Below, piece by piece: positions 23,809 to 30,531 of a stretch of DNA of 64,000 nucleotides; the stretch's first letter is position 1, and each line of letters opens with the position of its first letter. A program made the translations under genes and the position numbers. The notes beneath the pieces are model-generated. The model was given only the letters and a program-made list of their open reading frames with translations, was not told the origin of the DNA and searched no databases. The stretch comes from Methanoculleus sp. 7T (lineage in GTDB: Archaea > Halobacteriota > Methanomicrobia > Methanomicrobiales > Methanoculleaceae), in contig NZ_JALPRP010000001.1 of the NCBI RefSeq assembly GCF_023195915.1, positions 1,240,001 to 1,304,000 on the forward strand. The letters are read 5' to 3'.

Positions 23809-25452
23809 TTATTCGCCGGCCGCCCGGAGCGCATCAAGGATCGACTCGCCGATGACCGGCGTCGCGACAAAGATATTCTCCGGGCCGATGACCTCGGCTG
23901 CTCCGGTCTCTTTGAGGCCTGCAAGGAGCCCGGGGTTGACCTCGGCGAGGATGAGCCGGTTCCCATGGGCGCGGACCTGCCGTGTATACCGCTCCAGCAT
24001 CCGGAAGAGCCCGGTCCCGGCCTCGACCTGCCCCCGGAGGGCGAGGATCACGACGGCGTCTCTTGCCCCTTCGGGGGATGGGAGCGACCGCTCGATGGCC
24101 CGGAGGGTGGCGAAGAAGACGTTGCCTGAGATCGAGAGGACGGTGACCCGGCCCTCCGGAAGCCGGTCCGGCGCCTGCTCTTCCCGGAACATCCCTCCGC
24201 CCGCCGGCACGAGGCGCACAACGGCGGCCTCACGTGTGGAGGTGATCAGGTAGACGGCAAGCGAGAGGAAGACGCCGATATAGATGCTGTACTGGAGCGG
24301 GAGCACCTGGGTGGAGACGAAGGTGGCGACCATCGCCCAGCGCCCGGAGCGGGAGTACTTCCAGATGCAGGCGATCTCGTGCGGCCGGTACATGAGTTCA
24401 GCCCCGATGAGGATCAGGAGTCCGGCGAGGGCCGGGAGGGGGATCAGTTCCGCGAGGGGTCCTGCGAGGACGATGACCACCCCGACGACGGCGCCCGAGA
24501 AGAGGTTTGCCATCCGGGTCTCCGCCCCCGCGCTGACGTTGAGCGCCGTCGCCGAGAGCGACCCGCTTGCCGGTGCGCACTGGAGGAAACTGCAGATGAT
24601 GTTTGTGGCTCCTTGCCCCCGGAAGTCCTGGTTCACGTCGGCGATGGTCCCGTCGGGCTCCGGGGTCTTCTCTGTGACCCCGACGGCCATCACGAGCCCG
24701 AGGATGGCGAGGGCGAGCGCCGGGACGAGGAGCCCGGGCGCAAGGGTGAGGTCGGGGACGACGGGTGCGGGGAGGCCTGCCGGGATGGCGCTGATCTCGC
24801 TGACGAGCGCGACCTCGAGGTCTGCAGCCCAAACGAGGATGGTTGCTATGATGATCGGGAGGAGCAGGGCGGCGGTGCGGAGGAGCGGCAGCCGCCGGAG
24901 GGCGAGGATGAGCCCGATGGTGAGGAGGCCGACGGCGAGGGCCCAGGGGTTGATATCGCCCGCGTGGCTGAGGAGGTCGGCCGCCGCGAGGAGCCGGATC
25001 CCGTCTTTCTGGAGCTCGTAGCCGGTGAGGTTCCCGAGTTGCCCGAGGATGATGAGGAGCGCTCCCCCGATGATGAACCCGGTGAGGACGGCGTTTGATA
25101 TGAACCGGGTCAGGCTGCCTGCCCGGACAAGCCCGAACCCGAGTTGGAAGAGCCCGACGAGGAGCGTCAGGACGAAGAGTGTTGCCGGGACGTCGGCCTC
25201 CGGGACCGGGGCGAGGACCGAGTAGATCGAGACCGCGAGGATGTTTGAGAGCATCACCTTGAGGTAGGAGGATCCGGTGACGAGCGCCCCGATCGCCGTC
25301 GAGAACGTGGCGGTGTAGAGACCGTAGATCGGGTTGATCCCAGCGACGATGGCGAATCCCATCGCCTGCGGGATCCCGACGAGGGCGGTGGTCGCCCCGG
25401 CCGCGAGGTCGGCGGGGAGGCTCTTCCTCCACTGCGGTTTACCGGCGGGCAT
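23809..25452 (-). CDS. SulP-family anion transporter with STAS domain
   Basis: 547 residues. The transmembrane part begins with DLAAGATTALVGIPQAMGFA, IYGLYTATF and contains NQDFRGQGATNI, all SulP signatures. After about residue 410 a soluble STAS domain follows (VTVLSISGNVFFATLRAIERSL, VVILALRGQVEAGTG). SulP proteins move sulfate, bicarbonate or other anions. The predicted STAS phosphorylatable Ser/Thr position is replaced by GTGLFRM here. It is followed by the AI-2E permease gene but with 55 bases between. Confidence 0.9.
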   Translation of the reverse strand: MPAGKPQWRKSLPADLAAGATTALVGIPQAMGFAIVAGINPIYGLYTATFSTAIGALVTGSSYLKVMLSNILAVSIYSVLAPVPEADVPATLFVLTLLVGLFQLGFGLVRAGSLTRFISNAVLTGFIIGGALLIILGQLGNLTGYELQKDGIRLLAAADLLSHAGDINPWALAVGLLTIGLILALRRLPLLRTAALLLPIIIATILVWAADLEVALVSEISAIPAGLPAPVVPDLTLAPGLLVPALALAILGLVMAVGVTEKTPEPDGTIADVNQDFRGQGATNIICSFLQCAPASGSLSATALNVSAGAETRMANLFSGAVVGVVIVLAGPLAELIPLPALAGLLILIGAELMYRPHEIACIWKYSRSGRWAMVATFVSTQVLPLQYSIYIGVFLSLAVYLITSTREAAVVRLVPAGGGMFREEQAPDRLPEGRVTVLSISGNVFFATLRAIERSLPSPEGARDAVVILALRGQVEAGTGLFRMLERYTRQVRAHGNRLILAEVNPGLLAGLKETGAAEVIGPENIFVATPVIGESILDALRAAGE

Positions 25453-25587
25453 GCTCCGGGGAGAGTGCGGGGCGCAGGGTATATGTGTTGCCCCCGGATG
25501 CCGACTGCTTGTTCCCTTCCGGTGCGGCGATGGGGCACAGGACCCCGGTTGGTTGGACGCCCCGGTGGCCCGGGCGGAGTGGTCTAG

Positions 25588-25640
25588 TGGTCTAGCTGGT
25601 TGTGACGTCGCCGTGGATAGGCGAGGATACGACTAGACCA
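25588..25640 (+). repeat. tRNA-like repeat unit 1 (D-arm plus anticodon-arm, no T-arm)
   Basis: The unit starts with TGGTCTAG and ends with CTAGACCA, an 8-bp perfect inverted repeat; an extra TGGTCTAG precedes it at 25580-25587. Inside lies TAGCTGGTTGTGACG, which reads as a tRNA D-arm, and a 5-bp stem TCGCC/GGCGA enclosing the 7-base loop GTGGATA. No TTCRANT T-loop is present, so it is not a normal tRNA gene. Confidence 0.6.
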
Positions 25641-25728
25641 CGGAGGCTTGGGAAAGACCGTCATCTCGTCATTCCATGCCGATACGGCCGCGATGTGCGG
25701 CCTCCAGGGGTGCGCCTGATGAGCGTAA

Positions 25729-25790
25729 CGGTCTAGCTGGTTATGACGTCGCCTTGGTAAGGCGGAGTCGGCTGGACTACCACTAGACCA
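25729..25790 (+). repeat. tRNA-like repeat unit 2
   Basis: This copy shares GGTCTAGCTGGTT.TGACGTCGCC with unit 1 but has a different loop (TTGGTAA, which would give a GGT anticodon) closed by CGCC/GGCG. It ends in the same CTAGACCA. The stems are kept while the loop differs, as in tRNA relatives. Again there is no T-arm. Confidence 0.6.
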
Positions 25791-26067
25791 TGGGGCCCCG
25801 GGCCGGCGAAGACGCAGTTCTATCGGCACCAGGTTGCCGCATTCGTGGCTCTGGTCATGGTAACTTTTCTTATGCTTGAGCACACGGGTGAGGGAACCGA
25901 GAGGGGAGAGGCTCTCCCGCGCGACGAGGCACGGCGGCGCCACATACTCATTCGAGGTGGACGGCACGACCCTCCGCCGCCATCCGCCCCCGAGAGCACC
26001 TTGTTCTACCCCATTAAGTATCTTCATATATTTTCGCGCATATGTGTAAAAATGGAGGTGATACACC
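25791..26067 (+). other. Gap before the DUF5320 gene
   Basis: No supported coding sequence. A CATATATTTTCG TATA-like box near 26026-26037 precedes the DUF5320 start, and a full GGAGGTGAT ribosome site is at 26053-26061. Confidence 0.5.
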
Positions 26068-26265
26068 ATGCCAGGTTTTGATAGGACCGGACCGTCCGGC
26101 AGCGGCCCCCTGACGGGCGGCTGCCGGGGCCGGTGCGCCCTGCCTCAAGCTGCGGCGACGGGAGGGGAATCCCCCGCACCGGTGCTCCGCGGTCTCGGCC
26201 GGGGCGGTATCCCGTGGGGATGCGGCCGCGGCTTCTGCGGCGGCCGGACACGGGGCCGGTGGTAA
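26068..26265 (+). CDS. DUF5320-type small protein
   Basis: 65 residues beginning MPGFDRTGPSGSGPLTGG, the start of the DUF5320 family (normally MPGGDGTGPMGMGPMTGRG). The rest is Gly/Arg/Cys-rich. The start follows a near-perfect ribosome site, GGAGGTGATACACC. These small proteins travel with DUF134 regulators and NifX-like proteins in methanogens; their role is unknown. Confidence 0.75.
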   Translation: MPGFDRTGPSGSGPLTGGCRGRCALPQAAATGGESPAPVLRGLGRGGIPWGCGRGFCGGRTRGRW

Positions 26266-26823: not shown

Positions 26824-28050
26824 TCAGGGAAGCCGGACAACGGCCCGGTTTTCAGTGAGGTTGTTCTCCTGCGACACCGGTTGCGGAGAGAGCGTGACGA
26901 AATCGCCAAATTCCGACCATAATCGGTTTATCGGGTAGTCGGGCCCGGACGTCTTCTCTTCTGCAAGCGCCTGGTCGACCCCGCCGATCACGTCGAATGA
27001 ACGGTACACATGCGGATAGCCCTCGGCGCCGAGGAAGGAAGGAGTATCCGTCACGACCTGGAAGTGGAGGTGCGGGAGATCGGAGTTCCCGCTGTTCCCC
27101 ATCAGGCCGAGGACCTCTCCCTCCGTAACGGTGTCGCCGACCCCGACACGGATCGAGCCGGGGACCATATGGGCGTAGCAGGCATATTTTTGGTTCCCGA
27201 TATCGACGATGACGTAGTTTCCGGCCGCGGTTGCAACGGTCGCCGGCGGGGCGGAGTAGATGGTCTCAAGGTCGGGGAGCCCGTCCATGACGTCCACCAC
27301 CATCCCGTTGGCGACTGAGTAGATCTCTCTTCCATATCCGAGGAAGTTCTTTGCCGGCGTCACGTTCCCGGTGGCCGCCTGCCCGGTGACCGGGTCCAGG
27401 TATATCCAATCCTGTGCGTAGCGCTGGGGGACGCGGGTCGCTCCGTTCATCGTGATCTGGGTAAGGAAGTGGTGGGTTACGGGAGCCGTGGTCTCGATCG
27501 CCGTCCAGCCCGCGCCGCGCACCGGCGAACCGATGACCACCGGCGCAAGGTCGTTGCGCACCGTGACGTTGCCGCCGGTGAGCGTAACCGGCGCGAGCCC
27601 GCTCTCGGTCCGGTTCAGAGTGAGCCGATGGACGAGCCGGTCCGGTACGGCGTCCGGACCAACCTTGAACCAGAGGGAGATTCTTGGGACGGGTAGTTTC
27701 CCGGTACCGCTCTCGAGTTCTGCCGCCGTCGGCGGGGGGTCTGCGGCCGGGTGGTAGAGCGCGGCCAGCAACTCCCCATCAAGCGACCAGAGTATAGCCC
27801 CCGTGTCGGGGTCGATGACCTCGACCTTTTCCGGCACGAGCGTCCGGTTTCCTATCGGGGAGACCTCAAGTTCGTAGGCAAGGTTGACACCGTCCTGACT
27901 GGAGACCGGGATGGGCGGAAACGGGACGGTCATATTCACCGACGGGGCCGCAGGTGCCGGTTGCGGTTCCACTACGGTTTGCATACATCCGGCAGCAAGG
28001 ATCGCCGCCGTCACGATGGCGAGGATGAGGATCTGGCGAACGGCCGACAT
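26824..28050 (-). CDS. Lipoprotein with M23-peptidase-like fold
   Basis: 408 residues. A signal with lipobox LAAGC is followed by an N-terminal beta region and, in the last third, an M23-like domain: GMVVDVMDG, NYVIVDIG, YAHMVPGSI and the HLHFQV motif. The first zinc-ligand pair of canonical M23 enzymes (HxxxD) is not clear; only RYAQDW is in the expected place. Because this archaeon should lack murein, the domain may act on another polymer, a bacterial neighbour's wall, or be non-enzymatic. ATG 28050 is chosen for its signal peptide. Confidence 0.8.
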   Translation of the reverse strand: MSAVRQILILAIVTAAILAAGCMQTVVEPQPAPAAPSVNMTVPFPPIPVSSQDGVNLAYELEVSPIGNRTLVPEKVEVIDPDTGAILWSLDGELLAALYHPAADPPPTAAELESGTGKLPVPRISLWFKVGPDAVPDRLVHRLTLNRTESGLAPVTLTGGNVTVRNDLAPVVIGSPVRGAGWTAIETTAPVTHHFLTQITMNGATRVPQRYAQDWIYLDPVTGQAATGNVTPAKNFLGYGREIYSVANGMVVDVMDGLPDLETIYSAPPATVATAAGNYVIVDIGNQKYACYAHMVPGSIRVGVGDTVTEGEVLGLMGNSGNSDLPHLHFQVVTDTPSFLGAEGYPHVYRSFDVIGGVDQALAEEKTSGPDYPINRLWSEFGDFVTLSPQPVSQENNLTENRAVVRLP

Positions 28051-28111
28051 GATAACAGCATTCGGAGAATTGTTGCGGTAGATGATAAACAGGAAGGGTT
28101 TGTGATCACAG

Positions 28112-28146
28112 TAGCGGAAGTCCCACGGCTTTCTTCGTGGGAATAG
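28112..28146 (+). mobile_element. Possible IS200/IS605-type right-end hairpin
   Basis: GAAGTCCCACGGCTTTCTTCGTGGGAAT-like sequence forms a 7-bp TCCCACG/CGTGGGA stem, resembling the hairpin next to tnpB ends in IS200/IS605 elements. No complete tnpB is adjacent, so this would be a remnant. Confidence 0.35.
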
Positions 28147-28592
28147 TCGCGCCGCAGGCTTGTGAAGATGAGTAGTACGGGTGCCCGGGTGGGAACGCCA
28201 TGAGCAACCCATTGTCGTCGTGTTGATGTCGCGGTCGTGGTGGACCCCGCAATCGGACGGATCCATCCTCTACCCGAGAGGGTGAGATCTTGGCTGATGT
28301 TGTCCATACTGGCTACATTTTGTTGAGAAGGAAGTGATCTCTTGCTCTTGAGGATCGTCCGCCCAGACTACTAGCACTGCCAACAGAGTAATTAGTGAAT
28401 GGCTAAAGCGGTTTCAGCCGCTCCGCCTTGTAGCTCCTCATCCCTGCCTGTGTGCCCCGTACTGCTACCTATCCTGACAATCCTGGTGTTATTTGTTCCA
28501 TGCAATTTGAGAAGTACCTAATGGAGCAGATAGAGGGAAAATGGAAGAAAACTCTGGCTGGGTGAAGGTCGAAGAGCGGATGGATTGACTAA
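28147..28592. other. Gap of about 450 bases without a supported gene
   Basis: No long frame or RNA gene is evident. Two tiny frames start at 28521 and 28541 just ahead of the 28593 gene; they are 14-15 codons and may be chance. The region may hold decayed insertion-element sequence. Confidence 0.4.
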
Positions 28593-28886
28593 ATGCTGTT
28601 GCCGGTCCGGGTCTCACCACACCGCCGCGTGTGGGCTGATGTTTCGTTCAGATATGAGAAGCACATCTATGCCGGGTCCACAGAGGATGTTGCCAGGTAT
28701 ACCCTCAAATATGGCCGCGTGAACGGCGTCTATGAGGACGAGGAGATCGCGCATGATCTCAAGCGCACCGTTGCCGGGATGCTCCGGCGTGGGGTGCCGC
28801 GTCAGCAGGTTGTAGAAGAGACCTCCGCGCTGTACGGCATCCCGGAAGAGTGTGTGGAAGAGGTAGTGGCCGCGGTCCCGGCGTGA
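28593..28886 (+). CDS. Hypothetical protein, 97 residues
   Basis: A soluble, mixed-charge protein with predicted helices (VARYTLKYGRVNG, EIAHDLKRTVAGMLRRGVPRQQVVEE and IPEECVEEVVAAV). The C-terminal half looks like a three-helix bundle. No domain is recognised. GC content is host-like, whereas the downstream PIN gene is AT-rich, so this gene may mark the last host-type locus before the island. Confidence 0.55.
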   Translation: MLLPVRVSPHRRVWADVSFRYEKHIYAGSTEDVARYTLKYGRVNGVYEDEEIAHDLKRTVAGMLRRGVPRQQVVEETSALYGIPEECVEEVVAAVPA

Positions 28887-29033
28887 GGCTTTCAGCCCTA
28901 TCCCAATACTTATTTAGATTGACCGGTAGCGCATTCAAATCCTTCGTACATATTATTCATGTCAATTGAGTTTCAAGCCATCTCAAAATCTATATTGCTT
29001 TCTTCTACATAATGTTGCTATGTTGAGGTTATC

Positions 29034-29918
29034 ATGAAGATCTTTATTGACACCAATATTTTCTTAGGCTTCTACCAGGCCAATTTTGATCACCTCCAAA
29101 AAATTATGGATCTATCTAACATTAAGGGAAAGATAGTTTTAGTAGACCACTGTTGGAATGAGTACCTTCGAAATCGGTCCAATATTTTTGAGATTCTCTT
29201 GAAAGAAATTAAAAATCATAAGCCAAAAAATATCCACACTACATCCTTTATTTCTAGTTTTGATGAATATAAGTCTGCAGATGACTTAAATAAGCAAACT
29301 GGAAGTGCTATTGATACTTTAATCAAAAAAGTCGAGGCAATCAAAAGTAAACCCGATGATGATATTGTGTATCGCCAGATACTTAGTTTTTACAATGATC
29401 CTGGTATCACGATATTTAAGATAACACCGAGTATTTTTGATCGAGCAAAGGACAGGAAATACTTAGGAAATCCCCCATTTTCAAAGGATAAGTATTCAAT
29501 CGGAGATGAAATTATTTGGGAAACACTATTGGAAAATATAGATGATGACTTAATCATTGTAAGTCGAGATAAGACATTCAATACTCATCGTGAGTTTTTA
29601 GAGCATGAATTTTCGAATAAGAAGCAAAAAAATCTTTTTGTCTTTGAAAAATTAAAAGATGTGTTCGTGAAACTTGGAAAGGAAGCTCCAAGAGACTTAG
29701 TTGAGTTTGAGACGACCGAAAAAGAACCTGTGGTTTACCGGACAGAATCGGGTTCTGTGGAGACTGGGGATTTGGTCCAAGTTGCAACCTCCTCAAATGT
29801 GTTTAGTGCATCAGTACCCACGTTTAACACTGACCTCATCTGTTTCCGATGTGGCCATGTGCATGATCGATACACCCCTAGATGCATAAAGTGCGGATAC
29901 TGGATGTCGTTTGACTAA
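29034..29918 (+). CDS. PIN-domain nuclease-like protein with C-terminal zinc ribbon
   Basis: 294 residues. The N-terminus MKIFIDTNIFLGFYQ carries the first PIN acidic residue, and acidic residues follow in DDDIVYRQ, GDEIIWETLL and DDDLIIVSRDKTF, the DUF4935-like PIN arrangement. After a linker, the C-terminus has CFRCGHVH...CIKCGYW, a zinc ribbon. PIN enzymes cut RNA. The gene is markedly AT-rich (Lys/Asn/Ile-rich protein) compared with its surroundings, a strong sign of horizontal transfer. No antitoxin overlaps it; the RHH gene 360 bases on is a candidate partner. Confidence 0.85.
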   Translation: MKIFIDTNIFLGFYQANFDHLQKIMDLSNIKGKIVLVDHCWNEYLRNRSNIFEILLKEIKNHKPKNIHTTSFISSFDEYKSADDLNKQTGSAIDTLIKKVEAIKSKPDDDIVYRQILSFYNDPGITIFKITPSIFDRAKDRKYLGNPPFSKDKYSIGDEIIWETLLENIDDDLIIVSRDKTFNTHREFLEHEFSNKKQKNLFVFEKLKDVFVKLGKEAPRDLVEFETTEKEPVVYRTESGSVETGDLVQVATSSNVFSASVPTFNTDLICFRCGHVHDRYTPRCIKCGYWMSFD

Positions 29919-30090
29919 ACAAAGGACAACTCCGCAGATAATTTTCTTTAAATCGCTTGGTTGTCTCCATTTTAGCAATCTCTCCGAAGCGCGAGGTGAA
30001 GCTCCCTGCCAACAGGCCCTTCCCGTGCGGCTAACCCTTCTGATCGCCCCGCCCGACTCTGGCACCCTCTCATGCATAACCCCCCGCAAA

Positions 30091-30116
30091 GTTAGGCTAT
30101 CCGAAACTGTCCGCAC
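30091..30116 (+). repeat. 26-bp imperfect direct repeat, copy 1
   Basis: GTTAGGCTATCCGAAACTGT followed by CCGCAC; matches copy 2 at 22 of 26 positions. Confidence 0.6.
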
Positions 30117-30202
30117 ACTTTCGGCCGTCTGAAACATCACGGCGTCCCCCGAAAACGCCCCCGTTTTTGGTTACCACCTCTTTAAGACCCGTCCCACAGA
30201 GA

Positions 30203-30228
30203 GTTAGGATACCCGAAACTGTGCGGAC
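30203..30228 (+). repeat. 26-bp imperfect direct repeat, copy 2
   Basis: GTTAGGATACCCGAAACTGT followed by GCGGAC. It runs into the paired TGCGGACAG sites just ahead of the RHH gene. Confidence 0.6.
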
Positions 30229-30250
30229 AGATACAGCACTATGCGGACAG
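30222..30250 (+). promoter_or_regulatory. Paired TGCGGACAG sites, candidate operator
   Basis: Two identical nonamers start exactly 20 bases apart (30222 and 30242), about two helical turns, and end 27 bases before the RHH gene. The inverted core TGTCCGCA occurs at 30108-30115. This spacing suits a dimeric RHH repressor. Confidence 0.45.
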
Positions 30251-30277
30251 TAGAAAAGAAACAGGAGAAATGAGAAA

Positions 30278-30475
30278 ATGGCAAAAGAAAAGGAATACGA
30301 GCGAAAGAGGAGAAGATTGAACATTACGATCTCGGATCAGGCGCATGATTTTCTGAAAAACCGGGTTACGAATGCATCCCGTTTCATAGAACAACTAATA
30401 GTAAGTGCTGAAAACGAAATCCAAGCAACGATTGTTACGATTTCCCCGATTAAAGGTGGGCCCGGAGGGATTTGA
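30278..30475 (+). CDS. Ribbon-helix-helix-type DNA-binding protein
   Basis: 65 residues. RRRLNITISDQAHDFLKNRV forms a basic ribbon and first helix, and NASRFIEQLIVSAENEI the second helix, as in small RHH repressors and antitoxins. The last residues (GGPGGI) are encoded by the 3' end of the tRNA gene on the opposite strand, so the stop codon is supplied by the tRNA. The gene lies in the AT-rich island and repeated sites precede it. Confidence 0.65.
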   Translation: MAKEKEYERKRRRLNITISDQAHDFLKNRVTNASRFIEQLIVSAENEIQATIVTISPIKGGPGGI

Positions 30476-30531
30476 ACCCACGACCGCCCGGTTATGAGCC
30501 GGGCGCTCTGACCGGACTAAGCTACGGGCCC
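30457..30531 (-). tRNA. tRNA with CAT anticodon (elongator Met or Ile2)
   Basis: On the minus strand a full cloverleaf reads: acceptor GGGCCCG/CGGGCCC, D-arm TAGCTTAGTCCGGTCAGAGC, anticodon arm CCGGCTCATAACCGG with loop CTCATAA, and T-arm GTGGGTTCAAATCCCTC. The anticodon is CAT; whether it is elongator Met or the agmatidine-modified Ile tRNA cannot be settled without modification data, although the G-C rich acceptor resembles archaeal Ile2. CCA is not fully encoded. The 3' end faces the AT-rich island. Confidence 0.92.

Follow-up and report, generated by a model that had tools for sequence, protein, structure and literature searches.

Paired hairpins derived from half of a tRNA-Val gene lie upstream of a SulP transporter gene in Methanoculleus

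tRNA halves are known as ribosome-acting cleavage products, and tRNA genes as landing sites of genomic islands. In the split tRNAs of archaea, which are trans-spliced, the 5′ half of a tRNA forms a separate locus. Trans-spliced tRNAs are mentioned in PMC8450103. In Haloferax volcanii, a 26-nt 5′ fragment of tRNA-Val(GAC), Val-tRF, is abundant and bound to ribosomes, and its sequence is GGGTTGGTGGTCTAGTCTGGTTATGA according to the published probe (PMC3544259). On the archaeal small subunit, G19 and G20 of the D-loop of Val-tRF are positioned at the decoding centre (PMC11009984). At the DNA level, the anticodon loops and stems of tRNAs resemble recombinase core sites (PMC8371274), and the integrase of pTN3 has its attachment site in the 5′ half of a tRNA gene (PMC5495485).

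The window analyzed here, a stretch of 64,000 nt from Methanoculleus sp. 7T (contig NZ_JALPRP010000001.1), contains two tRNA-like units in tandem on the forward strand, for which no description was found in the literature searched. Unit 1 (25588–25642) matched R1, a covariance model of the units that was run over 199 genomes of the order, with 69.2 bits (E 2.9e-15), and unit 2 (25727–25792) with 66.1 bits (E 2.1e-14). Unit 1 begins with a copy of TGGTCTAG (25588–25595), continues with an anticodon-like stem (TCGCC, 25608–25612; GGCGA, 25620–25624) around the loop GTGGATA (25613–25619), and has CTAGACCA at the end of its 3′ arm (25633–25640). Directly 5′ of it lies an extra TGGTCTAG (25580–25587). 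Unit 2 carries GGTCTAG (25730–25736), preceded by C rather than T, a stem of TCGCC (25749–25753) and GGCGG (25761–25765) around the loop TTGGTAA (25754–25760), an inserted GGCTGGACTA (25770–25779), and the same terminal CTAGACCA (25783–25790). When unit 1 is taken with its extra TGGTCTAG (25580–25642), the two units form a direct repeat of 31/35 nt (89% identity), 141 nt apart; the spacer between them (25643–25726) has a related counterpart in other two-unit genomes. The shared plan is GGTCTAGCTGGTT(G/A)TGACG, TCGCC, a 7-nt loop, GGCG(A/G), and, after 8 to 17 nt, CTAGACCA. The first-pass annotation had described two tRNA-like repeats without a T-arm, with a common D-arm-like segment, a 5-bp anticodon-like stem that persists while the loops differ, and an extra repeat ahead of unit 1, and we recovered each of these features; no T-arm follows either unit. 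Extra half-sites, 8–11 nt apart, occur in 4 genomes (G000, G011, G021, and G044). At L037, L040, L058, and L059, extra copies of TGGTCTAG or CTAGACCA lie 8–11 nt from the arm of the unit itself.

The same annotation had closed both units by stems that replace the acceptor and T-arm. These stems are present, but they compete with the D-stem, as both draw on the same bases (GGTC), and the preferred fold is not a T-armless cloverleaf but one long, imperfect hairpin. Unit 1 is the exception to this sharing; there, the extra TGGTCTAG could supply bases for both the D-stem and the closing stem. In single-unit folds compared with dinucleotide shuffles, the forward strand gave z-scores of −4.15 (unit 1) and −2.63 (unit 2), and the reverse strand was equally unusual, at −4.10 and −4.15, respectively.

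Neither ARAGORN nor Rfam called a tRNA on them, they do not make up a cloverleaf, and they were absent from the genome-wide list of RF00005 matches at E ≤ 1, so that true tRNA genes were rejected. The sole tRNA in the window, by ARAGORN and by Rfam at the gathering score, is a tRNA-Met (30455–30531). A lax Rfam scan of 25400–26100 gave no match, and none of 4,227 Rfam families matched the units at or near its gathering score. A dispersed repeat was rejected as well, as the genome itself holds only this single unit locus and 3 true tRNA-Val genes.

Judged by their sequence, the units are derived from the 5′ half of a tRNA-Val gene, in agreement with the tRNA origin that had been proposed. The 5′ arm of unit 1 is 96% identical to nt 7–32 of tRNA-Val, and that of unit 2 is 100% identical to nt 9–35. 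For most units, the homology starts at nt 1 or at nt 7–10, and its usual end, at nt 32–35, is inside the anticodon loop. Beyond this point, the place of the tRNA 3′ half is taken by a strand whose sequence complements the D-arm, and the 3′ arm of both window units approximates the D-arm's reverse complement. The complementary strand reaches as far as the acceptor strand in some relatives (GGGCTC...GAGCCC). The genes for tRNA-Val(GAC) in these genomes have the sequence GGGCTCGTGGTCTAGCTGGTTATGACGTCGCCTTGACATGGCGGAGG... Two relatives retain more of the tRNA. One unit (G010; L068) keeps the acceptor strand GGGCTCG with its partner GAGAGCCC and is the best partial Rfam match, reaching 27.5 bits to the tRNA model, for which the cut-off is 29, with the T-arm missing. 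Unit 1 of G001 retains remnant T-arm sequence and scored 23.5 bits. Read by eye, the reversed 3′ arm also resembles tRNA-Gly(TCC) (TGGTCTAGTGGTATGAC), the D-arms of the Gly and Val tRNAs being themselves alike.

In a DNA search of 41 genomes, several congeners proved to carry the units in pairs with a spacing of about 150 nt. Copies in other genomes, a criterion that the annotation had named, were thus present, and because like units occupy the same locus in related genomes, a chance origin is excluded. When the regions upstream of the SulP transporter gene were read, 1 to 3 unit copies were found in 19 of the 27 Methanoculleus genomes that carry this gene, including records named M. chikugoensis and Methanoculleus sp. 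UBA303, which bears out the genus that the annotation had given. Six genomes have SulP without units (G041, G007, G012, G016, G017, and G018), G008 has only a broken trace at the locus, and the upstream region of G015, counted among the 27, is an unreadable contig end. Units were also present on contigs of G006 and G047 in which SulP was not detected, and away from SulP in G001, which brings the Methanoculleus genomes that carry units to 22 of 35. Across the 199 genomes of the order, R1 found extra hairpins only in G032, G027, and G031, from 2 other families of Methanomicrobiales; in the family of G032, only 2 of 12 genomes have one. Nothing clear was found outside the order among 393 genomes of the phylum; matches of 38–43 bits there are taken to be tRNA-Val, judging from their uniform scores. 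A virus or plasmid origin was rejected, as plasmids, phages, and viral contigs (the last searched by the pattern used) yielded no unit. The one viral contig with the 24-nt arm bears a complete tRNA-Val.

The tRNA-derived part of the units is strongly conserved. Between distant genomes, the 5′ arm is about 87–100% identical (mostly at least 95%), against about 49–61% for its surroundings. Among the two-unit genomes of the main group, 46–50 of the 50 positions in the 25-nt 5′ arms are identical. Between species, the 5′ arm agrees at 48/50 or 38/39 positions and the rest of the unit region at 86/141 or 69/142, while four-fold sites of SulP are about 70% identical in the same comparison. This contrast is absent from the pair G019 and G044, in which the 5′ arm and its surroundings are both 88% identical. 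Across 36 distinct units, 11 positions in tRNA numbering are invariant (10, 11, 12, 18, 19, 28–31, 40, and 41), U33 is present in 34/36 and G34 in 30/36, and positions 32 and 35–37 are free to vary. Among the bases that make tertiary contacts in tRNA, G18 and G19 are present in 36/36 units, U8 in 33/36, A14 in 30/36, and A21 in 29/36. Outside these, the half-sites TGGTC and GACCA are kept on both sides. The pattern resembles that of a molecule that has kept a D-stem, its GG, and an anticodon arm, with an anticodon of no importance. It is unlike that of a valine tRNA, as neither A14 nor A21 is fixed and bases 35 and 36, the identity bases of ValRS, are free. With the tRNA-derived half so strongly conserved, the units probably do something.

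The annotation had considered a decayed tRNA pair, which is right as to the tRNA origin, but decay is too weak an account of a 5′ arm at about 87–100% identity in surroundings at about 49–61%. A fuller version would make the units relics of a tRNA-Val fragment that was copied in an ancestor, became palindromic by template switching, was duplicated locally, and is now decaying, its 5′ arm kept alike by gene conversion from tRNA-Val genes. The T-arm sequence in unit 1 of G001, the copy number of 1 to 3, the broken trace in G008, and single units that look as if unit 1 had supplied the 5′ arm and unit 2 the 3′ arm are all consistent with such a history. However, the 11 positions are invariant even in units far from tRNA-Val, and conversion would not spare only those; it would also be expected to bring along the anticodon loop, whereas the exact loop of tRNA-Val was found in no unit. 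We regard a relic as unlikely.

The annotation had also named a structured RNA derived from tRNA, for which the evidence from pairing was mixed. The long hairpin is paired in 87% of cells. The D-stem is 97% paired, because substitutions in the arm are mainly at 13–17, 21, 24, and 27; together with the anticodon stem the value is 96%. Covariation in the outer stem is modest: 5 pairs changed on both sides, with a score that was matched by 1 of 500 shuffles, which ignore relatedness. No double changes and no covariation were seen in the D-stem and anticodon stem, nor was there an excess in the extended inner helix. By parsimony, transitions of the G-U and A-C types stood at 11.5:5 on the 3′ arm (strand-blind expectation 2:1) and at 9.5:17 on the 5′ arm (1:2), so that neither arm showed a strand preference. 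An AT-rich box was found upstream of 10/41 model hits, some of these boxes belonging to neighbouring genes, as opposed to 19/23 tRNA-Val genes. Neither window unit has such a box, by a crude test with which a distant or non-canonical start would be compatible. Of the proposed structured RNA, the copies in other genomes and the modest covariation of the outer stem stand, while a promoter and a strand preference were not found. The strand and promoter results do not help an RNA gene, but a read-through transcript would be compatible with both.

The units lie next to a gene for a SulP-type anion transporter with a STAS domain (23809–25452, reverse strand; PF00916, E 1.7e-67), which is divergent from them. 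Between the units and its start codon, a TATA-like box was recognized by eye (25479–25487, reverse strand). A box of this kind (GGGATATAGG/GGGTATATG) is kept beside the SulP start in relatives, about 30–40 nt from the start codon. Because this conserved box, read by eye, separates the units from the SulP start, they are probably outside the SulP transcript, and a 5′-UTR element of SulP is disfavoured for the same reason. A second conserved hairpin (AACTATCCGG...CCGGATAGTT) lies between the TATA-like box and unit 1 in L022, L024, L025, L029, L054, and L060, with seemingly compensated changes in G024 (AACTGTTCGG...CCGAATAGTT); it is missing from the window.

This arrangement would allow a DNA operator, in which the repeated TGGTCTAG/CTAGACCA half-sites would be bound by a protein that regulates either the divergent SulP gene or the gene on the other side. 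The units are on the far side of the TATA-like box, their outer half-sites TGGTC/GACCA are kept on both sides, and the extra half-sites of G000, G011, G021, and G044 are 8–11 nt apart, all of which fits. However, the distance to the box varies from about 20 to more than 100 nt, the units of G001, G031, G032, and G027 lie apart from SulP, and 6 genomes have SulP but no units. Conservation, moreover, extends into the anticodon stem and U33, and the invariant D-loop would go unexplained. We consider an operator quite unlikely.

On the far side of the units, the next gene in the window encodes a DUF5320 protein (26068–26265, forward strand; PF17253, E 3.3e-8), which is found there in some relatives only. 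Gene content beyond the units varies: some genomes have DUF5320 and DUF134, others a nucleotidyltransferase, a PIN-like gene, or a YaaA-like gene (several identified by eye). Upstream of the DUF5320 gene (window 26000–26068), a CATATG-type palindrome (ACACATATGTGT in relatives) beside an AT-rich box is kept in relatives. From DUF134 to the tRNA-Met gene (window 26824–30531), there are an M23 peptidase and a PIN-domain-like protein (29034–29918, by eye); this stretch may be an insertion zone, because tRNA-Met is much nearer to DUF134 in some relatives.

All 4 loci that were read away from SulP, 1 in Methanoculleus and 3 in other families, are defence islands. That of G001 contains a type I restriction–modification system (type I methyltransferase and specificity subunit), that of G031 an RmrA-like regulator near BREX-like genes (the BREX call made by eye), that of G032 DruF, a type IV restriction enzyme, RmrA, and a PIN-like gene, and that of G027 a type II methyltransferase with type II and type I restriction–modification (the type I call made by eye). 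G001 and G031, although of different families, share a block of about 220 nt that starts at the hairpin loop, runs outwards, and is practically identical (L098:2700–2950 and L099:18100–18356, ~100%). This block may reflect a recent transfer, a shared island, or contamination of one assembly. About 190 nt past the hairpin, within the block, a D-arm and anticodon arm resembling those of tRNA-Asp (GGTAGTGTAGCGGCCTATCATGTCGGCCTGACAGGCCGACGAC) were noticed by eye (L098:2870–2950 and the matching stretch of L099). The annotation's suggestion of an element end gains some support from the position of the units, at a border between conserved and variable gene content and elsewhere in defence islands, although neither an integrase nor an element came to light.

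These surroundings bring up a rival at the DNA level, namely that the tRNA-Val-derived palindrome, whose inverted arms flank a 7-nt overlap that was once the anticodon loop, is a present or past attachment site or a rearrangement hot spot for islands. That the homology ends in the anticodon loop is what core sites of tyrosine recombinases would lead one to expect (PMC8371274), and the pTN3 integrase provides a precedent for the use of a tRNA 5′ half (PMC5495485). The loops vary while the arms persist, the arms are inverted around 6–8 nt as in attachment sites, and the substitution pattern is strand-blind. Gene content that differs beyond the units, the 4/4 other loci in defence islands, and the identity of G001 and G031 from the loop outwards point the same way. 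However, no PF00589 integrase was found near the hairpins in the 11 genomes searched, nor any copy in plasmids, phages, or viral contigs. The tandem loops are not identical overlaps (TTGGTAA and GTGGGTA in G010), a difference that should prevent strand exchange, and only about 85 nt lie between the units. Furthermore, G18 and G19 stay fixed although the bases opposite them change, something that a symmetric site does not need. On balance, a recombination site seems doubtful, if somewhat less so than a relic.

The units are real and conserved, they derive from half of a tRNA gene, and the sources searched do not describe them; for their function, an RNA mimic is the narrow favourite. Beyond the demonstrated derivation, location, conservation, and pairing, we tentatively favour, well short of confidence, a selected mimic of tRNA-Val without a T-arm, perhaps similar to Val-tRF. 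Selection would have kept the 5′ half of tRNA-Val (the D-arm and the anticodon stem with U33), while the 3′ half would have given way to a short complement of the D-arm, closing the molecule into a hairpin. It would be transcribed in the sense of the tRNA, probably at a low level or by read-through, and would present the D-loop and anticodon arm of tRNA-Val to a normal binder of tRNA. The best concrete candidate for this target may be the small ribosomal subunit, as with the Val-tRF of Haloferax, and the locus-encoded hairpin could act on the same target. The units bear GTGGTCTAG-CTGGTTATGA, compared with GGGTTGGTGGTCTAGTCTGGTTATGA in Val-tRF, and the GG of Val-tRF at the decoding centre is the GG that is invariant in the units. 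Against a mimic are the pair G019/G044, whose 5′ arm is no better kept than its surroundings, and the 6 SulP genomes without units. More specifically, the locus might be a gene of its own for an RNA of the tRNA-Val 5′ half, that is, a Val-tRF-like translation regulator encoded as a hairpin, with copies also in defence islands; from the sequences at hand, we rate this as improbable as an operator.

A long-kept locus for a 5′ half, in which the D-stem, the D-loop GG, and the anticodon stem are frozen and the anticodon is free, joins the themes of tRNA halves and island landing sites. With the half and the tRNA as separate loci that can be removed independently, a function of tRNA halves in their own right becomes testable.

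With the tRNA-Val (GAC/CAC/TAC) of Methanomicrobiales, the units share the sequence of the D-arm and anticodon stem and U33, and a few add the 5′ strand of the acceptor; unlike it, they have no T-arm, usually no acceptor stem, a scrambled anticodon, and mostly no upstream AT box. Archaeal split tRNA halves likewise place a 5′ tRNA half at a separate locus, but no 3′ half to go with the units was noticed, the anticodon of the units is not that of Val, and complete tRNA-Val genes are present elsewhere in the genome. Attachment sites of the pTN3 type have in common with the units a tRNA 5′ half up to the anticodon loop and dyad symmetry around a 7-nt loop, whereas the units have no integrase, no element between them, unlike loops, and palindrome arms of about 25 nt (PMC5495485, PMC8371274). 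The Val-tRF of Haloferax volcanii corresponds to the same part of the same tRNA (PMC3544259, PMC11009984), and the D-loop GG that touches the decoding centre in Val-tRF is the one that never varies in the units (PMC11009984). Val-tRF, however, is 26 nt long and cut from a real tRNA, whereas the units extend through the anticodon stem and are a locus of their own, known here from DNA alone.
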